Virus record (IMG/VR): IMGVR_UViG_3300031629_000030
Location: 1-34,735 of that record
DNA length: 34,735 nucleotides
Source: a virus
Reading direction: 5' to 3' (one strand)
The position numbers and the translations under genes were made by a program. The notes under the pieces are model-generated. The model had not been told where the DNA came from and made no database searches. It saw nothing but the letters and a program-made list of their open reading frames with translations. This document shows, one piece after another, positions 286-34,485 of this stretch; the first letter of the stretch is position 1; every line of letters begins with the position of its first letter.

Positions 286-3200
286 TTAGTTAAACCTAGC
301 CTCTCTATCTAAAGCTGCGCGGTACATCGAAACAAACGTGGTCCGTCTTTTCCGAATCTCTCGATCAACACCTTCCATAAGCGTCTTCTTCCGCTTAGCA
401 TCTATATCAAGGTCGGCCTCGTAACTTGCCTTCTCCGCCCTCTTGCTGGTGATAAAGTTATTAGCAGCTTCGGCTTGGTCACTTAGGCTAAGCTTATAGC
501 CTTCCTCCGCGATAACCTTATCTACCGCAGCTTCGGCTTCTAGCCCGTCTTCGCTGGACACTTTCGCTGCGTCTAAAGCTCTCTGGGCATAGGTTATGTC
601 AGTAGTCGCCTTGTAGTAATTATCTACATCAGTTCGATTACCTACCTGCCCAACAAACTTACGCAGCCAAGGGTAGTCTCTAAGCTCAGTCTTTTGGTCA
701 GTCGCAATCATCGCTGGAGTAGTTACCATATCAGTAAAGAATCGCCCTGCGCCGCCTGTGAAGAAGCTGTAGTAGTGTTCTATAATCTCTGGAGAAATAT
801 CAACACTGCCAGGGCGTATATCAGTACCACCGGAGATTTCATTTAGCGTAGAAGCTATCGACTTAACATGCTCTGGTGTTCTGCTCCAAAATAACTGACT
901 CTCTGGTTTGGGGGGTCCAAACGGCATTTGATCTGGGCGAATAGGCGCCCCAGAGAAGTTCTCATTTGACTTAGCTTGGAGGAATGGATCACCCGCCGTA
1001 GGGGATAGCGCCTGTATTACAGACGCGTCGCTACCTACTGGGTTAAACCCGTGTATTAACGCGCCCATCATTCTGGTAAGTCCAATACCAGCGTCTAAGC
1101 CATCAACGTCCCTATTCCCTAGTAGTTGAGATGCGGCTGCACCTGTTACTTGGGCGCCAACGTTTATTACGTTGTATCCGTATGATAGCGGGATCTTAAT
1201 GTACAGTCTTCTTGCTGCGTCAGTATCGCCACCGAAGTCTGGCAACATAAACACCCAGTTGTTGTCCCTCACATACTGCGGGATTTTACTGTAGATAGAT
1301 TGTCCATCTTCATCTTCACCACCCATGAGGCGGTTCCACATTTCGACTGCAACTTGCATTCCGAACACGGCCAACATCGCCTTCCTAACAGCCTTGCTTT
1401 GTGCTGCTTGGATGATCGCTGCATTACCCTGCATACTTGCATTAAAGAAAACGTACAGTGACCCAGCTAATAACGTTTTATCGCCTCTTCGGTTAAAGTT
1501 AACCGTTAAGTTCTTAGCCACAAGTGATGCTTTATGTACGCTATACCCAGCTTTGCGAAGCTCGATATAGGTAGCAAGACGCACACCGTTTTCATAACTT
1601 GTGTTCAAGTCGGATATGTAATCAATCAGTCGATGCGCAACGTCTAAAGGCATGTACTTCTTCCGAGCCATTATCGTTTCAAGCTGTCTAGCGCGAGATG
1701 CCATTGTATCGTAGCTATCAAGCCAACCAGTTTGTGCGCCACCTTTATAGAACTCTTCGTACCAAATGGATTCCTCGCTATCCTTACGACCTTTTTGGTG
1801 GTCCCTGATACCTTTAATCGACTTCTTAACGTTCTTGGTTATTCTCATAACCATGTCGTGATCGACATCATCGTACTGGTACACGTTTATCAGTGCAGTC
1901 TGTATGTCTCGCGCCACGTTCGTAGGCATAAACTCCAGATTGTACTGAGTGTTAATCATGGAAATGTAGCGGTTAAGCTTGAGACCAGCCTGTACAACTG
2001 AGTTTACTTCTTTAGCGTTTAGATTATTCATCGACGTAGCGAGCATCATTGCATGGTCATTAGTCTGTTCAAATACAATCTGATGTTCTTCACCGGCAAC
2101 TCTCACAGCTACGACGTGCTTTCCTAGCCTAGTATTTGGAGTCTTCTTGAGTACGAACAGATCCGTAACAGGGTCTAAAACCTTCTCGTCTTCGGTCTTA
2201 TCAATGGTCCAGAAATCAGGATTCGGGTTCTTCTCGACTAGATTTAGCAACACCCGTTTTAGAACGTTGTTTTCTCCACGGATAATCGTTTGTTCATGCT
2301 GAACAATAAGGTTAATCAAGACGTTATCAGCCCTAGAGTTACGTCCGAATCGTTTATCTTCTTGAACTCTTTTGATCTTACCTTCTGGGTCCATTGGGTC
2401 GCCCAGTAGCGGAACATAGTAGTCGTATTGGTCACGATAACCTTGAACAGTTTCTTCGCTTAGCAATCCAGTTTCCACTAATATCTGACGTGTACGCTCG
2501 ATGACTTTATCAGTAGCGGCGGCAATACCATTCAGGGCATCCATCTTACCCGAAGCTTTAAAGTCAGCAATAATCTTGGCAGCATCTTCGTCGCTCATAC
2601 CAGATTTAGACTCGTTATCTTCAAAGGCAGCGTTTTTCTCTTTCATCGCTGCGTTAGCTTCTTCTGCATGGCGAGCGTACAAGTAGTTACTGACATCGTC
2701 TATAGATAGGTCATTCTTATACATAACATCAAATATAGGTTCAATGAATGTATCGTTGAAGTTAGTTATTTGAGCCGTAGTAATGCCGTGCTTTAACGTC
2801 TCGCTTCCATAGAAATCCATGTCTTCTTCTAGCTGCTCGGCAGTAAACTTCTCAATTTCTGCCTGAACTTTAGCTGCGCTAACGAAACGATCTTGGAAGT
2901 GAAAACGCGCCTTATCAAGCCAAGTAGCGTCCGTCACAGAGAAGGTCTCTGCACCGCTTAGAACGTCAGCTTGAGCTGGTGGGAACGTGTTAATGACTTC
3001 TTCCAGTTCAAGCCCTAGCATCTCAATGCGAGCCTCAACACCTTTACGGGTCTTAGCTGTGTACTCACGGGGTTTGCCATTGGTAAACATTTCGCCATCA
3101 ACTCGTCTATCAACCACTATATCCCAACCACCATCGCGGGGCTTGGCTACGAGTACGCGCTGGCCATCGGCATTGACGCCGTAAAGAGTAAGGTCTGGCT

Positions 3201-6200
3201 TCCCAGTACCCTTCTCTACCTTCGCCTTAACATCGGGACGATTAGAGCCTTCCAGTAGCGGTTCACCTGGGGTCATGCCGCCCTTCTTGCTAAACAATAC
3301 CCCAGAACCAGAAAGCCCATCAGAAGATGGGCTTTTTGTATTGGTCTTGGATTCGTACCCTTCACGGGTCTGCGCTCGCCGCCCTTCGGCAAAGGCTGCA
3401 CCCATATCATAAACACGTTTGCGTAGATCAGAGAAGCTGATCTCTTTAACAAAGCCTATCTTGCGTAGCATGTCGCGTATGTAAGTGACGATCTTGTTCC
3501 AGTATTTATCTGGCTTAGACATCTTCTTCTCGGCAACCCTGGCCAGTAGTTCTTCAGCTTGGACCTCAAGCGTTTCCTTCTTGTACTTATCTTGAACTTC
3601 TGCCCATGCGTCCTTTAGAGTTTTGCTGTTAGCAGCGTTCTCGTTGATTACGTCGATCAGTCCTTTGACATCTTTTGCTTCAAATAAACCCAAGCCCTTA
3701 TGTACCAAAAGCTCGTGCTGGATGGTGGAATCAATCTCTTGTACTGAGTCGATATTCTCGGCAATGAAGACAACGGCGTCTTGCTCTGGGTAGTATCCAC
3801 CTTTGATTCGGCCATCTTTAGCTGTTGAGCCAGGGCCAAAGGCATTGTCTTGTGTATCACGTACCCACACCCTAACATCATCTGCTCCTTTATATTTGGC
3901 CAAGAAGACGTCTACTCGCGCTTGGATCTGCGCTTTAGTCACACCTTTAGGCTTAGCGTTTGGAGCGAGTATAGCAGACTTGCTGAATAGCGGTTTCCCG
4001 TTAGTATTATCTTGGCCAGTGGCGTTAGTGTCCGCGTTGAACATATCGTCTTGGCCGTTAGCTGCTGCAACATCCGCAGCCGCATCGCTACCAGTTAGTA
4101 AGAATCCACCTACCTCGGCATCGGCTTTAGCACGGTCGGATAGCGTCTTGGTCTTAGCTGCCTGCTCAGTGCTGGCAGTAGCTGCCTGTTCTGTGTCGGC
4201 TGCTAAGGACTCTTCGGTCTGTGTTTCAAGGTCGAAGGACTCTTCGGTCTGTGTTTCAAGGTTAGCCTTATTGTTCGCTACTTCTTCAATAAAAGAGTCT
4301 GTAGGGTATAAGAAATCACCCCTGTACCTTAGCTTTTTATCAGCTAAAAGCTTTACCTGAACCCAAATCTGTTCGCTTTCAGTATACTCTTCAATGCCAA
4401 GCGCTTGGTAGCTAGGACTGGTAGCGCTGATTAATGCAAAATCTGGACCTTGCGATGAGGCGCCCATGTAGCCAGCTTTGGTGATAAGTTCATTCATACG
4501 CGCAGCGCTAGGCTCCGGAAAACTACCTCTCTTCAGGTAGAACTTCGCTTGTGGCGCCTTCATTTTATTCATTAGGCCCATGCGAACTGTTTGAAGGAAG
4601 TCTACTGACGTTTCTTCACTCTGTGTTTCAGTGTCTACGGAATCTGCTGCTTTGCTGTCTTTCTCGGCTTGGACAATTCGTTTATCTTCACCCGCTACCA
4701 TAGCTTCATAGTTTGTTTGAATCTGTTCTTGAGTCAAACTAGGATCTTCAAGGCGACTAAAATGCGAGTATGATTCAGTCGCTTTCTTACTGGCTTTTAT
4801 TCGCTCGTCTGTTGCCCTCGCACTGGCTTGCATCGAGCTTTCCCCTTCGTACTGAGACTTCTCAGAAGTTCGTGGGATATTTAAAGCGCCCGAAGCCGTT
4901 GCCCAGTCGTACAAGTTAGCAGCGTTTTCCAAAACACCCTCTCGGGAGTATAAATCGCCCTTCATCTTGGTCGCATTAGTCCATCGCAAAAGGTCACTTT
5001 TGGATATTGTGGTTTTTGAGAGAGCATCTTGCCATTTGGGGGTATCATTTACCGCTTCAATAAACGCTTCTAGGCTATCAAACTGAGCCATAGCTTGTGC
5101 GCCTTCTCTGGCGTCTACCATGCGCTTGATCTTGCTTTCTTTAGTTCCAGTCTTTAGTAAACCTGTATTCTTTAAAGTCGTTGCAAAGTCTTTCGTAGAC
5201 ATTGCGGATAGCTTAGTTTCAATCCGGCGTCTCTCAGTCGGAAGCATGGTCCCATCTAGTGATACTGTTTCTCTGGCATTGGTCCCAGACAATCCAGCAC
5301 TATCGCTTCCTCCCCCGCTTCCCGCTTCGCTGTCTGCAATGGGGTCTCCAGATGTAGCACTAGGGCTGAGTAATACTCCCACCTCATCTGTGCCATTCTG
5401 CGTTCCATTATCGCTCGGTCCAGTTCCGTCATTCGTATACTGTCCTGCCAGTCCTTGATCTCCTGCGCTCTTAGGAACATTTCGTTCTGGTCGTAGGTCT
5501 CCCACCCTGGCGGCTTGGTTTGTTGTGACACTGCTATCTCCTAACTCAATATCTCCCATAGACATCTGGAGCTGTAGAACAGCCTCGGATTCTTTGGGGT
5601 AGTTGGTTAGGATAGAATCAATCTCGCTCTCTGGCAAGCCAAGAGTTCGCGCTTCTTCTAATGCAGATGTAAGGTTTTGATCTTGGGGTTTAACTGGTGC
5701 TTGTGCTGCCTGTATCTCACCACCTTGGGCAATAAAGTCTTCATCCCTTGCTGCGTCTACGTTTGCCAAGTTGGCTTCGTTAGCTGTGGACACAACAGTC
5801 TCACCACGGACCGCTTTCTGTAGAAGGTCTGCGAAGTCGTTAACAGTCGAGTTGGCGTCTATATATCCATACTGGGATAACGCCTCACGCATTGCATCAA
5901 ACGACCTACCTTCTTCTGCTTTCGCCCTAAAGACAACCTGACCACCAAAGCCTTTACGCAGCTTAAAATCGGGTGTATCAAAGCCTTCGCTTGAAGCCTC
6001 AGTTCGTGTAACGCCACCCAACTTAGCTATAGCAACTAGAAGATCATCTTTAGTAGGATCGATTTCTTTACGTTGTGCTGCTTTTTGTGACTCAGACTGG
6101 TACTTCTTTTTAACTGGCTCAACGGGGATAACTGGAAATTCGGGTGCTAACTCAAAAGATTCGGGTAGTAACTCTGGAGATTCGGGTGCTAACTCTACCG

Positions 6201-8157
6201 TTTCAGGTGTTAACGCTGGAAGTGTGGGTGGTAACTCAGTATTTGTTGCAGCAATGCTTGCTTCATAAGCAGCCGTGTCTATGTCTATCTGAGCCATATC
6301 TTCAGCAGTAATCGCAAGAGGATCTACTTCAGGCTCATCTTTCGGTATGCTTACAATGGTAGGTGTTTGCGCTATTAAATCAGTTGTAGGGGGTACGCTT
6401 GATGTTAGTGGCGCATCCAGAGCAGCCATTATCTTAGCCAAGTCGTTATCAAGCTCTGCGCGTTGCGCATTGATTCCAACTTCCACTTCGGCAATGTCCG
6501 GTGCTGCACTGGTGGGCGCATCCGGTATGGCTGGTTCAGTTTTTTGTGGTGGGGTTTCTACAACCTTAGATTGATACGCTAACTCGGCTTCTTGTTCAGA
6601 GTCGAATGTACCTGCATTTTCTCCAGTGGCGGGATTTAGCACTGAGTATGACCCGCCCACATTTGGGAAAATACCCCATCCTTCAGTATTAGCATTAGGG
6701 GATATTAGTGCAGGGGTAGGTGTACCAAAAGAGCCATCGCTGTTAGCTTGGGGACCGCCATCGGTCTTCTTTGCGTCGGCTAGCGCGAGTTCGCCAGGTA
6801 TGGTCAGGGGTGCGAGAGTTGAAGCGGTAACAGCACCACTTAAAGCACCTTGCAGTGCTCGCTCAGCCGCAACCGCTGGCTCGAACGCTACGTTTGTACC
6901 GATAGTCTCGGCAGCGTATTCTAATGGCTCTTGGATTCCCTCTACGGCGCTGTCAGTAATAACACGTTTGGCGATTTCTTTTGGCACTTCAGCAATGCTT
7001 TGAACAGGTGTACTTATACCGAACACCTTTGATACACCAATACGCTCTATTATCGCTGAGAATACCGAAGCGGGTAGAACTTCGAGAAACTCTTGGAATG
7101 TAGCGTCTTTCTCACCCTTATTCTCTGCTCGATTCTGTCCCATCTCGCCAGTTCTAGCAGCGATATATGCTGGTAATGCAACGATTGCCGCAGCCATATC
7201 GGGGGCAGATACTAGCCCTGTTTCTAACGCCCACGGGAGTATGTTAGCTAATGGCTCATTCTTTACCTCTTCCCAAGTAGTGCCTTCTTTATACCCGAAG
7301 TCTGCACTTTCCATATCTCTGGCTAATGGAAGTAGGAACGATGGCTGTGCAATATCTTCCTTAGTTGATGGACGCCAAGATATACCATCAGCGCTAATGT
7401 CTACCACGCCTAGAGGTACACGCTCTTCCAACCAGTCGCCTAGCTCATCGGCTGACTGGCCAACAAAACGAACAAGGCCACCCCCAAGAGTAGACGCTCG
7501 TTCTGCTATGCCTCGGTTCACCCGACCTGCGAATGTGTTTTCATCTCGAAGTATAAAGTCAGTTACGGCTGAGTTAGGGCTATCGCTTTCTGTAGGTTTG
7601 TTACTAGAACGTGCTTCGGCAAACTTATCTGCTTCGGGAATGGTTTCAAACGACGGCCATGTCATACCATCATTCTGGCGTTGAATAGCTCGTTTAACCG
7701 CAATCTCTTCATGCTGGTCGGTAATATTGAAGCTAAGTAGCCCGTCGATATTCTCCTGTCCAGCGACCAAGGTTGGGATAACAGTAGGCATTCCTTGGTT
7801 TAACTCAGGATGCTTAACCGTAATCGTAAGCTCGGTGCTTACACTACCGTCTTCAAGGTTCTTCCAACCACCTAGCTCACCCCAGCCTTGTTTGTCTGGA
7901 CTAACGTCGATGAGATCGAACTGACCAATTTGGTTCTGTGGCGTCTCAGCTACTGGCGTTATTGCTTCTGGTTGTACTACAGGAGCTAACACTCCGTTAT
8001 TAACAGGTGTGCCAAATAGGGGGTCAAGATCTGCGAAGGGATTGTTTCTATCAAAGCTTGTCTTGGGGACATTCGTATCGCTACTAGAATTAAAGCTGTC
8101 TTTAGATCCGTACTCTTCGTTGAGGGGATCAAGATCGGCGAATGCGTTATAAGTCAT
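286..8157 (-). CDS. Large polyvalent protein (2623 aa), probable ejected internal virion protein
   Basis: Giant multi-domain protein of the phage large-polyvalent-protein type, last gene of the late block. The N-terminus carries FADLDPL twice (residues 6-12 and 41-47). A small conserved phage module follows (about 78-195), then a long Ala/Gly-rich hydrophobic region (about 205-455) that may act at membranes. Disordered Pro/Glu/Ser/Gly linkers join further modules. A zincin-like domain has HELLVH at 1481-1486, an HEXXXH arrangement, followed by KGLG. A helical region around 1950-2300 containing NVARDIQTAL resembles the LPD38 family. The C-terminus is charged and helical. Such proteins are thought to be packaged and ejected with the DNA. 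The start is ATG with AAAGG upstream. A terminator separates it from the preceding gene. Residues 876-967 overlap another plausible frame. Confidence 0.8.
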   Translation of the reverse strand: MTYNAFADLDPLNEEYGSKDSFNSSSDTNVPKTSFDRNNPFADLDPLFGTPVNNGVLAPVVQPEAITPVAETPQNQIGQFDLIDVSPDKQGWGELGGWKNLEDGSVSTELTITVKHPELNQGMPTVIPTLVAGQENIDGLLSFNITDQHEEIAVKRAIQRQNDGMTWPSFETIPEADKFAEARSSNKPTESDSPNSAVTDFILRDENTFAGRVNRGIAERASTLGGGLVRFVGQSADELGDWLEERVPLGVVDISADGISWRPSTKEDIAQPSFLLPLARDMESADFGYKEGTTWEEVKNEPLANILPWALETGLVSAPDMAAAIVALPAYIAARTGEMGQNRAENKGEKDATFQEFLEVLPASVFSAIIERIGVSKVFGISTPVQSIAEVPKEIAKRVITDSAVEGIQEPLEYAAETIGTNVAFEPAVAAERALQGALSGAVTASTLAPLTIPGELALADAKKTDGGPQANSDGSFGTPTPALISPNANTEGWGIFPNVGGSYSVLNPATGENAGTFDSEQEAELAYQSKVVETPPQKTEPAIPDAPTSAAPDIAEVEVGINAQRAELDNDLAKIMAALDAPLTSSVPPTTDLIAQTPTIVSIPKDEPEVDPLAITAEDMAQIDIDTAAYEASIAATNTELPPTLPALTPETVELAPESPELLPESFELAPEFPVIPVEPVKKKYQSESQKAAQRKEIDPTKDDLLVAIAKLGGVTRTEASSEGFDTPDFKLRKGFGGQVVFRAKAEEGRSFDAMREALSQYGYIDANSTVNDFADLLQKAVRGETVVSTANEANLANVDAARDEDFIAQGGEIQAAQAPVKPQDQNLTSALEEARTLGLPESEIDSILTNYPKESEAVLQLQMSMGDIELGDSSVTTNQAARVGDLRPERNVPKSAGDQGLAGQYTNDGTGPSDNGTQNGTDEVGVLLSPSATSGDPIADSEAGSGGGSDSAGLSGTNARETVSLDGTMLPTERRRIETKLSAMSTKDFATTLKNTGLLKTGTKESKIKRMVDAREGAQAMAQFDSLEAFIEAVNDTPKWQDALSKTTISKSDLLRWTNATKMKGDLYSREGVLENAANLYDWATASGALNIPRTSEKSQYEGESSMQASARATDERIKASKKATESYSHFSRLEDPSLTQEQIQTNYEAMVAGEDKRIVQAEKDSKAADSVDTETQSEETSVDFLQTVRMGLMNKMKAPQAKFYLKRGSFPEPSAARMNELITKAGYMGASSQGPDFALISATSPSYQALGIEEYTESEQIWVQVKLLADKKLRYRGDFLYPTDSFIEEVANNKANLETQTEESFDLETQTEESLAADTEQAATASTEQAAKTKTLSDRAKADAEVGGFLLTGSDAAADVAAANGQDDMFNADTNATGQDNTNGKPLFSKSAILAPNAKPKGVTKAQIQARVDVFLAKYKGADDVRVWVRDTQDNAFGPGSTAKDGRIKGGYYPEQDAVVFIAENIDSVQEIDSTIQHELLVHKGLGLFEAKDVKGLIDVINENAANSKTLKDAWAEVQDKYKKETLEVQAEELLARVAEKKMSKPDKYWNKIVTYIRDMLRKIGFVKEISFSDLRKRVYDMGAAFAEGRRAQTREGYESKTNTKSPSSDGLSGSGVLFSKKGGMTPGEPLLEGSNRPDVKAKVEKGTGKPDLTLYGVNADGQRVLVAKPRDGGWDIVVDRRVDGEMFTNGKPREYTAKTRKGVEARIEMLGLELEEVINTFPPAQADVLSGAETFSVTDATWLDKARFHFQDRFVSAAKVQAEIEKFTAEQLEEDMDFYGSETLKHGITTAQITNFNDTFIEPIFDVMYKNDLSIDDVSNYLYARHAEEANAAMKEKNAAFEDNESKSGMSDEDAAKIIADFKASGKMDALNGIAAATDKVIERTRQILVETGLLSEETVQGYRDQYDYYVPLLGDPMDPEGKIKRVQEDKRFGRNSRADNVLINLIVQHEQTIIRGENNVLKRVLLNLVEKNPNPDFWTIDKTEDEKVLDPVTDLFVLKKTPNTRLGKHVVAVRVAGEEHQIVFEQTNDHAMMLATSMNNLNAKEVNSVVQAGLKLNRYISMINTQYNLEFMPTNVARDIQTALINVYQYDDVDHDMVMRITKNVKKSIKGIRDHQKGRKDSEESIWYEEFYKGGAQTGWLDSYDTMASRARQLETIMARKKYMPLDVAHRLIDYISDLNTSYENGVRLATYIELRKAGYSVHKASLVAKNLTVNFNRRGDKTLLAGSLYVFFNASMQGNAAIIQAAQSKAVRKAMLAVFGMQVAVEMWNRLMGGEDEDGQSIYSKIPQYVRDNNWVFMLPDFGGDTDAARRLYIKIPLSYGYNVINVGAQVTGAAASQLLGNRDVDGLDAGIGLTRMMGALIHGFNPVGSDASVIQALSPTAGDPFLQAKSNENFSGAPIRPDQMPFGPPKPESQLFWSRTPEHVKSIASTLNEISGGTDIRPGSVDISPEIIEHYYSFFTGGAGRFFTDMVTTPAMIATDQKTELRDYPWLRKFVGQVGNRTDVDNYYKATTDITYAQRALDAAKVSSEDGLEAEAAVDKVIAEEGYKLSLSDQAEAANNFITSKRAEKASYEADLDIDAKRKKTLMEGVDREIRKRRTTFVSMYRAALDREARFN
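4205..4262 (-). repeat. 30-bp tandem duplication inside the giant gene
   Basis: A 28-bp string beginning AAGGACTCTTCGG occurs at 4205-4232 and again at 4235-4262, a period of 30 bp. It encodes a duplicated 10-residue acidic linker (LETQTEESFD then LETQTEESLA). The copies are identical over the 28 bp, so the duplication is recent. It lies in a linker between domains. Confidence 0.85.
5256..5531 (-). CDS. Candidate overprinted gene inside the giant gene (91 aa)
   Basis: A 91-codon frame on the same strand as the giant gene but shifted. It starts with GTG preceded by AGGAG at a 6-nt spacing. Its product is rich in Trp, Met, Glu, Arg and Tyr, with a likely amphipathic helix around residues 18-65 (for example MERRMAQMRWEYY), and looks like a folded protein. 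The main frame over the same bases (residues about 876-967) is low-complexity Gly/Ser/Asp/Thr linker, so constraint there is weak. I recognise no family. It could be a chance open frame: another shifted frame in this gene (start 3881) also has a Shine-Dalgarno by chance. Expression would be late, with the virion genes. Confidence 0.4.
   Translation of the reverse strand: MSQQTKPPGWETYDQNEMFLRAQEIKDWQDSIRMTELDRAIMERRMAQMRWEYYSALVLHLETPLQTAKREAGEEAIVLDCLGPMPEKQYH
6150..6238 (-). repeat. Degenerate 21-bp (7-aa) Pro/Glu repeats
   Basis: About four copies of a 21-bp unit encode heptads such as ELAPESP, ELLPESF and ELAPEFP in the giant protein. This is an acidic, proline-rich spacer, probably extended and unstructured. 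Confidence 0.75.
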
Positions 8158-30277: not shown

Positions 30278-30301
30278 GGCGGCTTTAAAAGCGGCCCTCC
30301 T
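30278..30301 (-). promoter_or_regulatory. terS Shine-Dalgarno with distance-shortening hairpin
   Basis: On the minus strand AGGAGG (30301-30296) lies 27 nt before the ATG, much too far for direct use. A stem, GGC-C-GCTT / AAGC-C-GCC with loop TTA (30296-30278), sits between. When folded it leaves AGGAG about 9 nt from ATG. The pattern is seen directly. The effect is inferred from known cases such as phage T4 genes 38 and 25. Confidence 0.55.
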
Positions 30302-30328
30302 AAAACGACAAAACCCGCCGAAGCGGGT
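30300..30328 (-). terminator. Leader terminator (tR'-like) in front of terS
   Basis: On the minus strand ACCCGC-TTCG-GCGGGT followed by TTTGTCGTTTT. A 6-bp GC-rich stem with the very stable C(UUCG)G loop and a T-rich tail. It lies between the probable late promoter region and the first late gene, so late transcription must pass it. With the Q-like gene at 34084-34485 this resembles the lambda pR'-tR' arrangement. Confidence 0.75.
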
Positions 30329-30383
30329 CAAGTGGTTAATTTGGTATTTAACCGGATTAGACCACGGATAATGGCCAATAGCC

Positions 30384-30398
30384 CTGCCACTATGGCAG
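30384..30398. promoter_or_regulatory. Palindrome (possible operator) in the divergent region
   Basis: CTGCCA-CTA-TGGCAG, perfect 6-bp arms, about 30 bp from the plus-strand promoter and just downstream of the weak minus-strand promoter. It could be an operator or an RNA hairpin in the late leader. No regulator is assigned. Confidence 0.45.
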
Positions 30399-30401
30399 TT
30401 T

Positions 30402-30431
30402 ATTAAATATCTAATGTTAATCGCTTGCATA
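30402..30431 (-). promoter_or_regulatory. Weak candidate late promoter
   Basis: On the minus strand TATGCA (30431-30426) and TTTAAT (30407-30402) with an 18-bp spacer. The -10 matches 5 of 6 bases, the -35 only 3 of 6. It overlaps the -35 of the plus-strand promoter back to back. Low certainty. Confidence 0.3.
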
Positions 30432-30454
30432 CCGTAGTGGCTCTACGGTAAAAT
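30425..30454 (+). promoter_or_regulatory. Sigma70-like promoter with palindrome in spacer
   Basis: TTGCAT (30425-30430) and TAAAAT (30449-30454), 18-bp spacer. The spacer and the first base of the -10 are occupied by a perfect inverted repeat ACCGTAG-TGGCT-CTACGGT (30431-30449). Position just upstream of the small-gene operon makes this its promoter. The palindrome is a candidate repressor operator that would block polymerase. Confidence 0.7.
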
Positions 30455-30505
30455 AGACATAAGCCGGCGATAGCTAGGCCCAACAATCACCAAGGAGTTT
30501 TAACC

Positions 30506-30742
30506 ATGTCATTTTCAAATAGCGTAACAATTAAGGGCATCACCTGTTTTGGCAAATGGGATTTAGAAGAAGGCGGATGTTTTGTGGCTGGCCACGAGAC
30601 CGCGACCGATGAACCGTTTGAGAACTTTTACGACGGCGACGACTGCACCACATGGACGCAGGTAGTTAAAGAACTAACCGCGTGGGGTGATCGGGTAGGA
30701 ATTACCATTGAAGAATTAGTCAGCGATAACCCAAACAATTAA
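30506..30742 (+). CDS. Hypothetical protein (78 aa), first gene of small-gene operon
   Basis: Start ATG with AAGGAG 8 nt upstream. Acidic product rich in Asp/Glu/Thr with two Cys (TCFGK, GDDCTTW) and several aromatic residues; probably a small cytosolic beta-alpha protein (VTIKGITCFGKWDLEEGGCFV). No family recognised. It is the promoter-proximal gene, so probably the most expressed early accessory product. The stop is followed by the first hairpin cassette. Confidence 0.65.
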   Translation: MSFSNSVTIKGITCFGKWDLEEGGCFVAGHETATDEPFENFYDGDDCTTWTQVVKELTAWGDRVGITIEELVSDNPNN

Positions 30743-30748
30743 AAGCTA

Positions 30749-30768
30749 ATAGGGGCGAAAGCCCCAAG
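30749..30768 (+). repeat. Intercistronic hairpin cassette, copy 1
   Basis: AATAGGGGCGAAAGCCCCAAGA. Stem GGGGC/GCCCC with a GAAA (GNRA) loop at 30752-30765, preceded by AATA and followed by AAGA. Unlike other copies it lacks CCCACC in front and is not directly followed by a start codon; the next start is 47 bp on. Confidence 0.85.
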
Positions 30769-30791
30769 AGGCCGGACAAGGGCCGAAAGAC

Positions 30792-30810
30792 TAACCCACC
30801 AATAAGGATA
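30792..30810 (+). repeat. Hairpin-less cassette remnant
   Basis: TAACCCACCAATAAGGATA is the flanking part of the cassette, with AGGAT as Shine-Dalgarno for the GP88-like gene, but with no GGGG...CCCC stem. The TAA here does not end any recognisable gene. It may mark a deleted gene or a precise loss of the hairpin. Confidence 0.7.
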
Positions 30811-30814
30811 GCCC

Positions 30815-31480
30815 ATGATACATATATCTTGGACCACTAAGCTACGCGCGGCCAGTTGGAGCCTTGAAGCTTTGACCACATGCCCAGCCGCGATAATATC
30901 CGGCGCGTTAAAGGCTGGTGTCTACGAACTAGCCGACGCCTGCAAGGGTTGTTATGCCCGTGGCGGTAATTATCGATTCCCTAATGTTAAAGCCCCACGC
31001 GCCGCCAACCGCGAAGACTGGAAGCGGCCCGGCTGGGTTGATGACATGGTTGAAGAGTTAGACTCACACCGCTATTTTCGCTGGTTTGATAGCGGCGATA
31101 TGTACGATCTGCGATTAGCTTTGAAGATTCTCGCAGTTATGGCAGCGACGCCACACTGCAACCACTGGCTACCCACGCGGCAGCATAAGTTTGCCAAGTT
31201 CACCGACGTTTTAAATAACATGCACTCGCTGCCTAACGTAGTTGTCAGGCTTTCTAGCGATTCAGTTACCGGTGGCATTTTAGAGACCCACTTACCCAGT
31301 AGCACAATTATTCCAACAGCAGACAGCGCAACGCCTTTAATGTCGGTTTGTTCCGCATACGCGAACGACGGCAAATGTGGCTCATGTCGGGATTGCTGGA
31401 ACAAAGACGTTAAGACCATCGCATACATCGCCCACGGGCGCAGCATGGCCAACGTTATCAAATTACTAGAGGTGGCATAA
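30815..31480 (+). CDS. GP88-family protein (221 aa), Cys-rich
   Basis: Resembles the phage gene-product-88 family: TTCPAAIISG (C23), DACKGCYARGGNYRFPNV (C43, C46), FRWFDSGDMYD (88-98), HWLPTRQHK (117-125) and VRLSSDS (144-150). A C-terminal Cys cluster C179-X8-C188-X2-C191-X2-C194 follows. Seven or eight cysteines and the GCYA motif suggest a metal or iron-sulfur site, and the motif order resembles a TIM-barrel or radical-SAM-like layout, but the CXXXCXXC signature is absent. The function is not established. Start ATG with AAGGAT upstream; followed by cassette copy 2. Confidence 0.75.
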   Translation: MIHISWTTKLRAASWSLEALTTCPAAIISGALKAGVYELADACKGCYARGGNYRFPNVKAPRAANREDWKRPGWVDDMVEELDSHRYFRWFDSGDMYDLRLALKILAVMAATPHCNHWLPTRQHKFAKFTDVLNNMHSLPNVVVRLSSDSVTGGILETHLPSSTIIPTADSATPLMSVCSAYANDGKCGSCRDCWNKDVKTIAYIAHGRSMANVIKLLEVA

Positions 31481-31520
31481 CCCACCAATAACCAATAGGG
31501 GCGAAAGCCCCAAGGAGTTT
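31478..31520 (+). repeat. Intercistronic hairpin cassette, copy 2
   Basis: TAA stop of the GP88-like gene, CCCACCAATA, a repeated ACCAATA, then GGGGCGAAAGCCCC (31498-31511), then AAGGAG as the Shine-Dalgarno of the next gene (ATG 31526). Fully formed cassette with a partial internal duplication. Confidence 0.9.
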
Positions 31521-31525
31521 TACCC

Positions 31526-31729
31526 ATGAATACCCAACTAATCAAAACGATTCCAGTATTCGCAACACGCGAAAGCATCGACGACGCCACCAGCTACGGC
31601 ATGAGCATTGCCCACAGTATGGGAGACGCTGATAAATGCGCGATGATAACCGGCTTAATGGTGCTGTATAACACTATGGCTAACGAGATTAACGCGCTTA
31701 GGGAAGAGCTAAACAATGCGACTGTTTAA
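31526..31729 (+). CDS. Hypothetical protein (67 aa)
   Basis: Small, Met- and Ala-rich, probably helical (SYGMSIAHSMGDADKCAMI, then MVLYNTMANEINALREELNN, a likely coiled coil). No family recognised. Start ATG with AAGGAG from the hairpin cassette. The 3' end overlaps the next start by 14 bp, so translation is coupled to the membrane microprotein. Confidence 0.6.
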   Translation: MNTQLIKTIPVFATRESIDDATSYGMSIAHSMGDADKCAMITGLMVLYNTMANEINALREELNNATV

Positions 31730-31817
31730 AGCGATCAAGACTGGCCACCTCGGCGTATGGATATTTATTATCTGGTTTGCTGCCGTGGTCATTAAAGCAA
31801 CAATCGACTCAATCTAA
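31716..31817 (+). CDS. Membrane microprotein (33 aa)
   Basis: ATG starts inside the end of the preceding gene, with GAAGAG 8 nt upstream. A basic N-terminus (RLFKAIKTGHLG) precedes one strong hydrophobic segment (about residues 13-27, GVWIFIIWFAAVVIK), ending ATIDSI. It looks like a single-pass inner-membrane peptide. Its TAA is the stop joined to hairpin cassette copy 3, which supports it as a real gene. Confidence 0.65.
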   Translation: MRLFKAIKTGHLGVWIFIIWFAAVVIKATIDSI

Positions 31818-31850
31818 CCCACCAATAGGGGCGAAAGCCCCAAGGATAAC
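31815..31850 (+). repeat. Intercistronic hairpin cassette, copy 3
   Basis: TAA stop, CCCACCAATA, GGGGCGAAAGCCCC (31828-31841), then AAGGATAAC leading to ATG 31854. The stem and GAAA loop are identical to copies 1 and 2. Confidence 0.9.
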
Positions 31851-31853
31851 AAC

Positions 31854-32066
31854 ATGCAATACTTTGCAACTGTAACTGGAAACAAAGATGTAAGTTTAAC
31901 CCGCTTAGTGCTTACTAATTTTCTATTGGATTACTGCGCCGAAAAATACGGCGAAGCAGAAGCCACCGTTCACACAATGGTTTTAATGCAGGAACTGCAA
32001 AACGGAACCATAAAGCTGTGGCGAAAGAATAGATCAAAATCTATAACAATAACCGGAAAAGAATAA
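31854..32066 (+). CDS. Hypothetical protein (70 aa)
   Basis: Begins MQYFATVTGNKDVSLTRLV; predicted helical core (YCAEKYGEAEATVHTMVLMQ) then a basic end (KLWRKNRSKSITITGKE). No family recognised. Shine-Dalgarno AAGGA from cassette copy 3, and stop TAA belongs to copy 4. Its basic C-terminus could bind nucleic acid, which is only an inference. Confidence 0.6.
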   Translation: MQYFATVTGNKDVSLTRLVLTNFLLDYCAEKYGEAEATVHTMVLMQELQNGTIKLWRKNRSKSITITGKE

Positions 32067-32099
32067 CCCACCAATAGGGGTTAACGCCCCAAGGATAAC
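32064..32099 (+). repeat. Intercistronic hairpin cassette, copy 4 (variant loop)
   Basis: TAA stop, CCCACCAATA, GGGGTTAACGCCCC (32077-32090), AAGGATAAC. The inner stem pair becomes T-G and the loop TAAC, a UMAC-type tetraloop, so the fold is kept with changed sequence. ATG 32102 follows. Confidence 0.85.
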
Positions 32100-32101
32100 T
32101 T

Positions 32102-32338
32102 ATGATTAATTTAAACGATGATAGCCGAAGCTGGGTTCTATGCTGGACCCTAAGATATACAGAAAAGCACGAAATAACCAAAGACTTTTGGAGGGCGTTC
32201 GATTCACACGCGGAAGCCAAGAAGAAATACGACCAGCTATACCATAATGAAAAAGTCTACAGCAGGTCACTTTGTGCAGTGATGGAAAGCAGCGACTACG
32301 AAACCCACGAAGCATTTAAAATGGAGGCGACCGCATGA
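32102..32338 (+). CDS. Hypothetical protein (78 aa)
   Basis: Acidic/basic mixed protein, Trp- and Tyr-rich (SWVLCWTLRYTEKHEITKDF), with a helical charged middle (HAEAKKKYDQLYHNEKVY). Similar small phage proteins are common but I cannot assign a function. Shine-Dalgarno AAGGA from cassette copy 4. Its end overlaps the next start by 4 bp (ATGA). Confidence 0.6.
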   Translation: MINLNDDSRSWVLCWTLRYTEKHEITKDFWRAFDSHAEAKKKYDQLYHNEKVYSRSLCAVMESSDYETHEAFKMEATA

Positions 32339-32535
32339 ATATCCAAGAGCTGGCCAACAGTAAAGGCGTGGAACTATTAGCGTTCTACAATGGTGTAGCG
32401 TTATGCGATAGGAAGCGAGGGTATCACCCTTTTGTATCGTGGCAGTTTGGCGAAGATAGTTTCTTCTGGGGCCATTACTCGGCTACCCGTGAAGAAGCAG
32501 ACGAAGAGTTTAAAGAGCGCATAGCGGCGCACTAA
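32335..32535 (+). CDS. Hypothetical protein (66 aa)
   Basis: ATG overlaps the preceding stop (ATGA), with GGAGG 9 nt upstream inside that gene. Product has YNGVALCDRKRGYHPFVSW, WGHYSATREEADEEFKER, a short beta-alpha fold pattern seen in small phage proteins. No function known. Stop TAA belongs to cassette copy 5. Confidence 0.6.
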   Translation: MNIQELANSKGVELLAFYNGVALCDRKRGYHPFVSWQFGEDSFFWGHYSATREEADEEFKERIAAH

Positions 32536-32570
32536 CCCACCAATAGGGGGCTAAAAGCCCCTAAAGGATA
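32533..32570 (+). repeat. Intercistronic hairpin cassette, copy 5 (variant stem)
   Basis: TAA stop, CCCACCAATA, then GGGGGCTAAAAGCCCCT (32546-32562), a six-pair stem with AAA loop, then AAAGGATA before ATG 32576. The stem is longer and the loop different, but outer GGGG/CCCC pairs are retained. Confidence 0.85.
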
Positions 32571-32575
32571 GCAAC

Positions 32576-32731
32576 ATGGAATTAATAACAGACCTTAGCC
32601 CCAGTGAATTAAACCGACACTACGAGTGGTACGTCGATGATGCAGAATACAATGACGAGATACCACTATCTTATGATGAATACGTCAGAGAATACAAAGA
32701 CGATATTATTCTAATTCTTAACGGAGCATGA
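32576..32731 (+). CDS. Hypothetical protein (51 aa)
   Basis: Starts ATG with AAAGGA from cassette copy 5. Very acidic (MELITDLSPSELNRHYEWYV, many Asp/Glu/Tyr), probably a small helical protein. It ends TGA one base before the next ATG. Acidic micro-proteins of this kind occur in phage early regions as host inhibitors or DNA mimics, but no such role is supported here. Confidence 0.6.
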   Translation: MELITDLSPSELNRHYEWYVDDAEYNDEIPLSYDEYVREYKDDIILILNGA

Positions 32732-32732
32732 C

Positions 32733-32888
32733 ATGGAATTAACATATAGCAACGACTGGCAGACCCAAGCAAGGGGAACCAATGATAGCGAGTACCAGAT
32801 TTATCTGGCTTGCGCTGGTGACAGTGAAGGAAACGATACCTTTACAGGTCAGCCCCTAAAAACCTATGATGACTGGCTGAACAGCTAA
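32733..32888 (+). CDS. Hypothetical protein (51 aa)
   Basis: ATG one base after the previous stop, with GGAG about 6 nt upstream. MELTYSNDWQTQARGTNDSEY then YLACAGDSEGND and a Trp-containing C-terminus. Small, acidic, no recognised family. No hairpin lies in front of this gene, in contrast to genes upstream. Confidence 0.55.
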   Translation: MELTYSNDWQTQARGTNDSEYQIYLACAGDSEGNDTFTGQPLKTYDDWLNS

Positions 32889-32902
32889 GGGAGTAGATGA
32901 TT

Positions 32903-33235
32903 ATGGAATCAGTAACAACAGTACGGGCTAAGGTATACCGCCCAACAGGTGGGGATAATACGATACTACAGTACGCAGGAGACGCGGACATTGTAGTAAG
33001 TTCGATAGCCGCTGTTATAACCGAAGACGCGGCAAATTCTAGCGGTTCGTTGTATATCTACTTGATAAGAGAGTATGAGTACAAAGACGGTACGGTTCAT
33101 AGGGAGCGTGACACCGCACACCGTGTCATTCTTAACAGTGGTGTGGAGCTGTTCATTGATGAGCGTGGACTGATTAACGTAGAGCGTTACATATCCTCGG
33201 GTAAAACACTTGAAGAACTGGAGGACTCAAAATGA
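32903..33235 (+). CDS. Hypothetical protein (110 aa), paralogue of the next gene
   Basis: I choose ATG 32903 (MESVTT), 9 nt after AGGGAG; ATG 32897 is only 3 nt away from it. Beta-rich small protein with YAGDADIVVSSIAAVI, then SSGSLYIYLIREYEYKDGTV and VILNSGVELFIDERG. Resembles the next protein over the YxGDA...S.IAA region, so the two probably arose by duplication. Overlaps it by 4 bp (ATGA). No function assigned. Confidence 0.65.
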   Translation: MESVTTVRAKVYRPTGGDNTILQYAGDADIVVSSIAAVITEDAANSSGSLYIYLIREYEYKDGTVHRERDTAHRVILNSGVELFIDERGLINVERYISSGKTLEELEDSK

Positions 33236-33576
33236 ACAATAAAACAGTAACAAAAGAGACACGGGAAGAGGGAATCGAGCGGAGAATGGCAAACTATGCA
33301 AAGGCAAGACTGCTAGAGATAGATATGCCCGTTTTCGCCCCGAAGAATAATGGTATTGAAAGGGATCTATACTACGTCGGGGATGCCACCGTTAAGATAA
33401 GCGCCATAATTGCTTCAACGTTGATGTACAATTTAAGAATCCGTGGAACGGACAAAGATGGGGATTTTGCCTGCGATGTTTTCCAACTCATGCTAGAAGG
33501 TGGGCATGTTCTATACACAAACCAAGTGGGAGACGATGAGATAAATGATGTTAAACGACGTGGGGAGGTTATATAA
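33232..33576 (+). CDS. Hypothetical protein (114 aa), paralogue of the previous gene
   Basis: ATG overlaps the previous stop (ATGA), with GGAGG upstream. The N-terminus (about 1-30) is charged and helical (TKETREEGIERRMANYAKAR), and the rest beta-rich with YVGDATVKISAIIASTL and FQLMLEGGHVLYTNQVGDD, aligned in order with the previous gene. No known family. Co-translated. Confidence 0.65.
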   Translation: MNNKTVTKETREEGIERRMANYAKARLLEIDMPVFAPKNNGIERDLYYVGDATVKISAIIASTLMYNLRIRGTDKDGDFACDVFQLMLEGGHVLYTNQVGDDEINDVKRRGEVI

Positions 33577-33578
33577 CC

Positions 33579-33884
33579 ATGACTAATCACTTATTTGCAT
33601 TCGAGTACAAGGACGGAAGGCGCACCACCACCGGTGAACCAAACAAACACTCTGGCAATCGAAGCATTGCAGGTCAAGCGTATATGTTCTGGGACGAGGT
33701 CGAGCGTGACGCTTGGGTAGTAGGTAACACACTTAATTATAACCAGCATACCGACAAACGAATTCGCACCAGTAGGCAGGTTCTACGCAGCTTGCACCAA
33801 GGAATGTCGGTTGCAGAATACGAAGAGTATATCGATGGCCTTGAGTTTCAGACCTGTGAACGTGGAAAATGGAGAGTGGCGTGA
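33579..33884 (+). CDS. Hypothetical protein (101 aa)
   Basis: ATG with GGGGAGG about 11 nt upstream, 2 bp after the previous stop. Contains EYKDGRRTTTGEPNKHSGN, then AYMFWDEVERDAWV, a pattern typical of small phage proteins in which a Gly-rich loop precedes a helix, and a helical end with VAEYEEYIDGLEF. No function assigned. Its stop overlaps the next GTG start (GTGA). Confidence 0.6.
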   Translation: MTNHLFAFEYKDGRRTTTGEPNKHSGNRSIAGQAYMFWDEVERDAWVVGNTLNYNQHTDKRIRTSRQVLRSLHQGMSVAEYEEYIDGLEFQTCERGKWRVA

Positions 33885-34051
33885 CCATTAAAAACAACAC
33901 TTACGACCCAGCAATGGCTCTTCGCCAATCTGCGTATATTGACCGGCTCAAGTCTAAAGGGCTAAAACAAACTCGGGTATGGGCGCATCCAGACGATGTG
34001 CCTAAGATACGAGACTACGCCGCAGAACTCGTTTCTAAACGAGAAAAGTGA
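33881..34051 (+). CDS. Small MazE-like / DUF3018-like protein (56 aa)
   Basis: I prefer the GTG at 33881, which overlaps the previous stop (GTGA) and has GGAGAG 5 nt upstream; an in-frame ATG at 33869 would give 60 residues. RQSAYIDRLKSKGLKQTRVW then DDVPKIRDYAAEL resembles the DUF3018/MazE-like antitoxin pattern (RERLRxxGLRxVxxWVP). No toxin partner is seen, so a stand-alone small DNA-binding or regulatory role is possible. Last gene of the operon, ten bases before the terminator. Confidence 0.5.
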   Translation: MTIKNNTYDPAMALRQSAYIDRLKSKGLKQTRVWAHPDDVPKIRDYAAELVSKREK

Positions 34052-34060
34052 AGCGAAACC

Positions 34061-34085
34061 AAAAAGGGGCTACGGCCCCTTTTTT
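34061..34085. terminator. Bidirectional intrinsic terminator between convergent units
   Basis: AAAAAGGGGC (34061-34070), loop TACG (a UNCG-type loop), GCCCCTTTTTT (34075-34085). It serves the plus-strand operon ending at 34051 and, in the other direction, the minus-strand Q-like gene, whose stop codon overlaps the T-run at 34084. Its GGGGC/GCCCC stem equals that of the intercistronic hairpins. Confidence 0.9.
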
Positions 34086-34485
34086 ATTGCCAATCTTCGC
34101 TACTCCATAGGACGCCCTGTAAGGCCATCTCAGAGCGCTCTACCAAAGGCCATACATCGGTACGGTTTGTACCCAACTCCTTCGCTATACGCCTTCCTGA
34201 GAACTCATAGACCCATCGATACTTCAAGCACTGGGCTAACTGCATATCCTGACGCCTAACCACTTGAACAGCAGCCTCAACACGTTCAGCATCCATTACA
34301 ACGACTGGTGTACTCATCGTGCTAACTGCACCCGCTTCCCAAACGTTATTATCAACAGATAACCTAGACTCTGGCGAAGCCGACGGATACCACAAGGAAG
34401 CGTAAGCATCCAAACCCCTAGCCCAACGCGACCACGAATCCATCATCATAATGGTGGACTCGCTCAATACTTTAGATTCAACCAT
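34084..34485 (-). CDS. Putative antiterminator Q-like regulator (133 aa)
   Basis: Resembles phage antitermination Q proteins (Phage_antitermQ type): N-terminal DSWSRWARGLDAYASLWYPS, then a middle VVVMDAERVEAAVQVVRRQD and C-terminal LKYRWVYEFSGRRIAKELG with a helix-turn-helix-like end (TNRTDVWPLVERSEMALQGVL). Q lets RNA polymerase pass terminators of the late leader. It is on the same strand as the late block and upstream of it. It starts at ATG sharing one base with the previous stop (TAATG). The Q assignment is by pattern, without alignment. Confidence 0.55.
   Translation of the reverse strand: MVESKVLSESTIMMMDSWSRWARGLDAYASLWYPSASPESRLSVDNNVWEAGAVSTMSTPVVVMDAERVEAAVQVVRRQDMQLAQCLKYRWVYEFSGRRIAKELGTNRTDVWPLVERSEMALQGVLWSSEDWQ

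Follow-up and report, generated by a model that had tools for sequence, protein, structure and literature searches.

A repeated hairpin element resembling the early leader lies at uncoupled early-gene junctions in a family of metagenomic phages

The 34,735-nt virus fragment analysed here (IMG/VR record IMGVR_UViG_3300031629_000030; the window) carries a late operon on its minus strand, with genes for the terminase, portal, major head protein, tail proteins and a 2623-aa protein (286-8157) containing an LPD38 domain (large polyvalent protein associated domain 38). The early operon lies on the plus strand (30506-34051) and comprises about 13 small genes and 12 junctions, nearly all of its genes being without a family match. 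Five GGGG..CCCC hairpins (30752-30765, 31498-31511, 31828-31841, 32077-32090 and 32545-32562) lie on the plus strand at early-gene junctions, and the box CCCACCAATA occurs in exact form five times, also on the plus strand only, starting at 30795, 31481, 31818, 32067 and 32536. A repeat search groups these elements into one 36-nt family with five copies, which bears out the repeated intercistronic cassette described in the first-pass annotation, a model's reading of the sequence alone.

Copy 3 (31815-31856; 65.8 bits) consists of TAA at 31815, the box at 31818-31827, the hairpin at 31828-31841, the Shine-Dalgarno (SD) sequence AAGGAT at 31842-31847 and ATG at 31854. The same order is found in copy 4 (32064-32104; 52.8 bits), with TAA at 32064, the box at 32067-32076, the hairpin GGGGU-UAAC-GCCCC at 32077-32090, the SD at 32091-32096 and ATG at 32102, and in copy 5 (32533-32578; 53.2 bits), with TAA at 32533, the box at 32536-32545, the hairpin AGGGGGCUAAAAGCCCCU at 32545-32562, the SD AAGGAT at 32564-32569 and ATG at 32576. 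Copy 2 (31478-31528; 44 bits) has an additional ACCAATA between the box (31481-31490) and the hairpin (31498-31511), its TAA, SD AAGGAG and ATG lying at 31478, 31512-31517 and 31526. Copy 1 had been taken for a hairpin alone, which is not the case: its junction (30740-30817) opens with TAA at 30740-30742 and the hairpin GGGGCGAAAGCCCC at 30752-30765, continues with a second, leader-like hairpin, GGCC-GGACAAG-GGCC (30770-30784), and then carries the full box TAACCCACCAATA (30792-30804) and the SD AAGGAT (30804-30809), together TAACCCACCAATA-AGGAT at 30792-30809, before the ATG at 30815; CCCACCAATA itself begins 29 nt past the end of the first hairpin. The loops given earlier (GAAA three times, UAAC, written there as TAAC, once and AAA once) were found as described, as were the changed inner pair of copy 4, which is U-G, and the extended stem of copy 5, which gains an outer A-U pair. 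Between copies 1 and 2 lies a GP88-family gene (PF17338; 30815-31480). A 33-aa gene (MRLFKAIKTGHLGVWIFIIW.., family 2; 31716-31817), which has only a weak match to a PHROG of unknown function, supplies with its own stop codon the start of copy 3, and a 70-aa gene (family 21; 31854-32066) has copies 3 and 4 on its flanks; all three genes are on the plus strand.

When one mismatch is allowed, the window holds eight matches to CCCACCAATA against 1.75 ± 1.3 expected, and none of the shuffled sequences reached eight. Hairpins adjacent to an SD occur at 5 of the 12 early-operon junctions and at 0 of the 23 late-operon junctions (Fisher p = 0.0024), and none of this kind was found on the minus strand of the window. 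Rfam gave nothing above the gathering score in 30300-34200.

Relatives were gathered by DNA pattern, a GP88-like gene and terminase, giving about 25 close relatives with terminases 90-98% identical. All sequences are metagenomic, and genes were called with a simple home-made caller. The stored sequences of L009 and L025-L054 were reverse-complemented for the analysis, which places the early operon on the plus strand, and their positions are quoted in that orientation. Outside this group, the terminases of Pseudomonas phages such as H66 are about 40% identical to that of the window and those of Manatee Spring contigs 43-46%, and a terminase search toward hosts gave matches of at most 46% identity, in Pseudomonas, Halomonas, Acinetobacter and others. 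The first-pass annotation had asked whether related phages lack the motif; they carry it: run on the window and 32 related loci, a covariance model built from 20 element copies gave 78 matches at E ≤ 0.1, the model's own source copies included. A bacterial origin of the element was rejected, as the pattern TAACCCACCAANNGGGGCGNAAGCCCC has no occurrence in an 84,980-species bacterial genome collection and a plasmid search gave no match.

We classified 245 early-operon junctions, of which 79 have a stable hairpin, 20 the box only, 134 are short or coupled and 12 are other. A GC-rich hairpin of at least 5 bp is present in 67 of 75 intergenic gaps of 30-90 nt, compared with 3.0 ± 1.6 after shuffling. 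Hairpin junctions have gaps of 31-88 nt, none being shorter than 31 nt, and no coupled junction (mode -4, ATGA) contains the element. Because it is found only at uncoupled genes, the hairpin seems to take the place of translational coupling. Among all hairpin junctions, the hairpin begins 8-10 nt after the stop codon in 44/79 and ends 0-1 nt before the SD in 50/79, in agreement with the adjoining of hairpin and SD noted earlier for the window. The element comes in two ARRANGEMENTS: type 1 has the order stop-TAACCCACCA-spacer-hairpin-SD, and type 2 the order hairpin-(ACAATAAAT)CCCACCA-SD, with a hairpin-to-SD distance of about 20 nt, while siblings without the hairpin read TAACCCACCA-AAGGAG. 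The stop codon is TAA in 80 of the 85 hairpin and box junctions and forms the first codon of TAACCCACC in 42 of them. Each genome with at least two copies has one element type only, either A (..ATA/ACA-GGGG..CCCC-AAGGAT) or T (..ACT-GGGG..CCCC-AAAGGAG), and no mixed-type genome was seen.

Across the family, the loop is mostly GAAA and otherwise GCAA, UUCG, UUUG, UAAC, AAA or AGCGAU, and the stem is kept, with an inner pair of C-G or U-G and an outer pair of U-A, U-G, A-U or none. GNRA and UNCG tetraloops have their special stability only as sense-strand RNA. Because the stem is kept while the loop swaps between GNRA and UNCG, the element is, on the evidence of its sequence, a hairpin that acts as sense-strand RNA, and the predicted probability of hairpin formation in a 230-nt context has a mean of 0.92. 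The proposal of a family of RNA elements in the first-pass annotation is therefore supported by the conserved stem, the exchange of stable tetraloops and the folding in context. The arms of type 1 vary little, so that classical covariation evidence is thin there, and covariation is supplied by the leader.

The 5' leader of the early operon lies behind a sigma70-like promoter on the plus strand (TTGCAT, 18-nt spacer, TAAAAT; 30425-30454), whose aligned position is conserved in about 18 related leaders. The palindrome ACCGTAG-TGGCT-CTACGGT (30431-30449) is located between its hexamers, and a palindrome of the form ACCGT-N8/9-ACGGT, with varying inner bases, is found between -35 and -10 in nearly all of these leaders and is likely a repressor operator, for which we regard it as a candidate. 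At the predicted 5' end of the early transcript lies the hairpin GCCGGC-GAUA-GCUAGGC (30463-30479), followed by the SD AAGGAG of the first early gene (30493-30498) with CACC just before it. The 18 leaders thus have a sigma70-like promoter, the palindrome, in most cases a hairpin a few nucleotides from the predicted transcript start, the box and an SD. Their stems vary yet pair (GGCCCCGC/GCUGGGGCC, GGUUUAGC/GCUAAGCC, AGCCUGC/GCUAGGCU, CAGUC/GACUG and UCGGC/GCCGA), and their loops are GAUA or GG(R)CRAG. Two features of sequence make the internal elements resemble promoterless copies of the early leader: CCACAATAAATCCCACCAAAGGA is common to those of type 2 and the L045 leader, and the second hairpin of copy 1 (30770-30784) carries the leader-type loop GGACAAG. 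Promoter-like matches are at chance level (8 vs 5.7), and the five elements contain none.

The element also coincides with switches of gene content. Where the upstream sequence is at least 90% identical over 90 nt, a different gene follows at 24 of 35 junctions with the hairpin and at 11 of 45 that are coupled (p = 1e-4, which is indicative only because the junction pairs are not independent). The clearest case is that of the window and L026, which agree at the end of the 33-aa gene, are identical over the 39-nt copy 3 element and diverge from codon 2 of the next gene. Across 16 non-redundant related phages, genes of eight different families come after this 33-aa gene. The mirror case is found in L033 and L046, where the element is identical, the downstream gene is 98% identical and the upstream genes are unrelated. 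Gene 21 is 98.1% identical between the window and L028, with terminases at 87.5%, and gene 29 is 95% identical between L038 and L046, with terminases at 82%; each is flanked on both sides by the element type of its own genome, and the paired genomes have opposite types. From these comparisons, genes 21 and 29 appear to have moved between the A and T lineages, and yet their flanks are of the recipient's type. Because transferred genes carry these flanks, either the crossovers fell on the borders of the element or later homogenisation made the elements uniform. The association with gene-cassette exchange suggested by the first-pass annotation is supported by both the neighbour switches and the resident-type flanks.

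We are moderately confident that the elements are best read as autonomous leader-like translation and mRNA modules that mark gene-exchange boundaries. Each would be a promoterless copy of the early leader, made of a stable hairpin, the A/C-rich CCCACCA box and an SD, placed at an uncoupled junction of the early operon. The hairpin would stay folded in the mRNA, directly 5' of the SD in type 1 and about 20 nt upstream of it in type 2, and each gene, having a standard leader of its own, would not depend for its translation on the gene before it. The element would probably act by presenting the SD beside a helix, blocking post-termination scanning and shielding the ends of segments from nucleases. 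The common edges, TAACCCACCA at the stop codon and the A/C-rich spacer with ATG at the start, would allow cassettes to be replaced by homologous recombination; because all junctions carry identical edges, they could serve as sites of such replacement, during which a junction would keep or regain the element type of the resident genome. We infer independent initiation, protection of the mRNA and a causal rather than correlative part of the element in recombination. A more far-reaching scenario, which we put forward tentatively, is that a lineage converts every junction to its own type, that incoming genes are spliced between these "socket" edges and made to work at once by the standard RNA leader, and that RNA architecture and exchange have been co-selected. 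On the leader reading, every exchangeable gene would sit behind a standard RNA leader that also holds the exchange borders, the type would follow the genome and not the gene, and the long-standing question of how single small genes move between phages and work in a new operon would have a visible answer.

Several observations weigh against this reading. Neighbours are conserved at 20-23% of box-only and short-SD junctions versus 26% of hairpin junctions; because these junctions turn over equally, the hairpin itself is not required for exchange, and the part in exchange is best ascribed to uncoupled junctions in general. Family 4 orthologues in L025 and L026 start without a GC hairpin, indicating that it is dispensable at a given gene. 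The predicted gain in SD accessibility speaks for a leader role but is modest, the SD being unpaired at 0.56 in hairpin junctions compared with 0.48 in coupled (p = 0.002) and 0.47 in other junctions (p = 0.004), and hairpin junctions show no reduction in the pairing of the start region with sequence more than 40 nt upstream (p = 0.52, 0.92). Translation insulation, another of the earlier suggestions, is thus not seen in the form of fewer long-range pairings of the start region. In metagenomic contigs, assembly may produce chimeras at repeats, an artefact made less likely by the recurrence of the arrangements in separate assemblies (L026/L027 and L038/L048).

As the proximate role, mRNA stability is equally possible. 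A possible though doubtful explanation is an element of mRNA decay that mainly protects segment ends and gives each cistron a stability of its own. The 5' end would then be guarded by the leader hairpin, hairpins within the operon would halt 3' exonucleases or, once the single-stranded box had been cut, come to form new 5' ends, and effects on translation would be secondary. The leader hairpin is at the predicted 5' end, and a 5'-terminal hairpin is in the classic mRNA-stabilising position; the stable GC stem with its GNRA or UNCG loop and the independence from loop sequence would also suit a purely mechanical block. However, the position flush with the SD in 50/79 junctions is unnecessary for the control of decay, and a stem of 5-6 bp is short for stopping an exonuclease.

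The gene switching, the resident-type flanks and the single type within a genome could alternatively reflect a recombination sequence at the DNA level, providing homology or a cruciform for gene shuffling, with a hairpin that has no RNA role; d(GNNA) loops can be stable in DNA too. We consider this improbable, since the UNCG swaps, the single orientation, the close register with the SD and the presence of the leader hairpin immediately after the promoter point to mRNA, and exchange is equally frequent at box-only junctions. No integron-type integrase was seen among the proteins scanned, and there is no sign of single-strand recombination, for which reasons an attC-like site was also rejected.

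Quite unlikely, in our estimate, is a protein-binding RNA operator or antitermination site (lambda boxB-like or T4 RegA/gp43-like) co-regulating the early genes. The 5-bp stem with a GNRA-type loop has the size of boxB, the UAAC loop of copy 4 is that of the T4 gp43 operator (PMC3014915), and a weak match to a Q-like antiterminator adjoins the operon. Such a site was rejected because the loop does not appear to be read, with GAAA, UAAC and AAA in one genome and GCAA and UUCG in others; boxA is not enriched, and one hairpin at each junction, abutting the SD, is not how nut sites are laid out.

Promoters for a phage RNA polymerase (T3/T7-like TAACCC..CAC..TA..GGG, with transcripts starting at GGGG) are very improbable: TAACCCACCAATAGGGG bears a superficial resemblance to the T3 promoter, but the box-to-GGGG distance varies, the box occurs before an SD without GGGG and also behind the sigma70 promoter of the leader, and among the proteins scanned, those of the window and the replication-side protein of L038 (a primase-helicase), no RNA polymerase was found, these genomes being partial. 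Intrinsic terminators were rejected, as the U-tract is missing and no element is listed as a plus-strand terminator, and so was stop-codon readthrough stimulated by a hairpin 8-10 nt past the UAA, as gap lengths modulo 3 have no dominant frame (33/23/23) and an in-frame stop lies inside the copy 4 hairpin.

The parallel drawn in the first-pass annotation was with the start-associated sequences (SAS) and extended SAS (ESAS) of cluster K mycobacteriophages, repeats located just upstream of the starts of non-structural genes (Pope et al. 2011, PMC3203893). It holds for position and for lineage-specific consensus. Like SAS/ESAS, the element lies upstream of non-structural starts, includes the SD and sometimes the upstream stop codon, has an inverted repeat (in a subset, for SAS/ESAS), differs in consensus by lineage as theirs does by subcluster, and is attached to varied gene families; all copies are on the plus strand of the early operon and mostly SD-flush, and each genome is of A or T type. 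The parallel fails for sequence, stem size and mRNA folding. The 13-bp SAS GGGATAGGAGCCC has no match in the window at up to two mismatches, and, unlike the imperfect inverted repeats of ESAS, which lie upstream of the SAS with arms of 17 bp and spacers mostly of 4-13 bp and whose folding as an mRNA hairpin found little support in that study (PMC3203893), the stems here are 5-7 bp with loops of 3-6 nt, tetraloop exchange on a 5-6 bp stem supports an mRNA hairpin, and gene switching at the element was measured. The PeSLs of T4-type phages, as summarised in PMC4503421 (Arbiol 2010; Comeau 2014), are small intergenic stem-loop cassettes that mark modular gene shuffling and are composite promoter-terminator motifs. 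As far as that summary describes them, they resemble our element in that cassette borders coincide with gene shuffling, and differ in that the internal elements have neither promoter enrichment nor a terminator U-tract. The element is related in kind to PeSL and ESAS and is a member of neither, and no description of it was found in the open-access literature, outside which the two PeSL papers lie.

In the structured ribosome-binding sites (RBSs) of T4 genes 25 and 38, a hairpin between SD and AUG helps initiation (PMC3014915); here too the hairpin is within the translation initiation region, but it is 5' of an SD whose spacing to the AUG is already normal. The position relative to the RBS is the same in RiboJ, a synthetic insulator with a stable hairpin just upstream of the RBS that is proposed to expose the RBS and stabilise the mRNA independently of upstream sequence, and for which terminal-hairpin stabilisation is also discussed (PMC6206723). 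Unlike RiboJ, with its ribozyme cleavage, of which none is known here, our element is natural and repeated at operon junctions, and it could be a natural counterpart of synthetic RBS insulators.

Copy 5 precedes two adjacent genes of 51 aa (32576-32731 and 32733-32888), which are equal in length, both begin MEL(I/T) and are possibly tandem duplicates; the second is often present alone in relatives. Its 3' end forms a second kind of boundary without a hairpin, stop-GGGAGTAG-ATGATTATG (32886-32896), found at the same junction in most relatives. This boundary is constant while the downstream gene varies among phages, which makes it another cassette edge.

Outside the family, GGGGCNNNNGCCCC-AAAGGAG was found in seven contigs, six of them with the match at a plausible gene start, versus two contigs for an unpaired control, and a second stem sequence gave four matches versus none for its control, none at a clear start, so that convergence is only suggested. 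Single GGGGCNNNNGCCCC hairpins with differing tetraloops stand SD-flush between genes in L167 (3068-3081), L166, L168, L170 and L174, and L164 has two (6273-6289 and 6671-6684); these may be convergent. Hairpins directly upstream of SDs are also found in Vreelandella and Chromohalobacter contigs (L123 at 8256 and 13840; L124 at 7779 and 13612), apparently at the same two genes in the two genera, one pair having the GNRA loops GAGA and GUGA. The more distant, GP88-bearing L022 has a repeated junction of its own, AACCACTAA..hairpin..TTAGTGGTATAAACAGGAG (3890-3940 and 4440-4500), a different element in a similar place.

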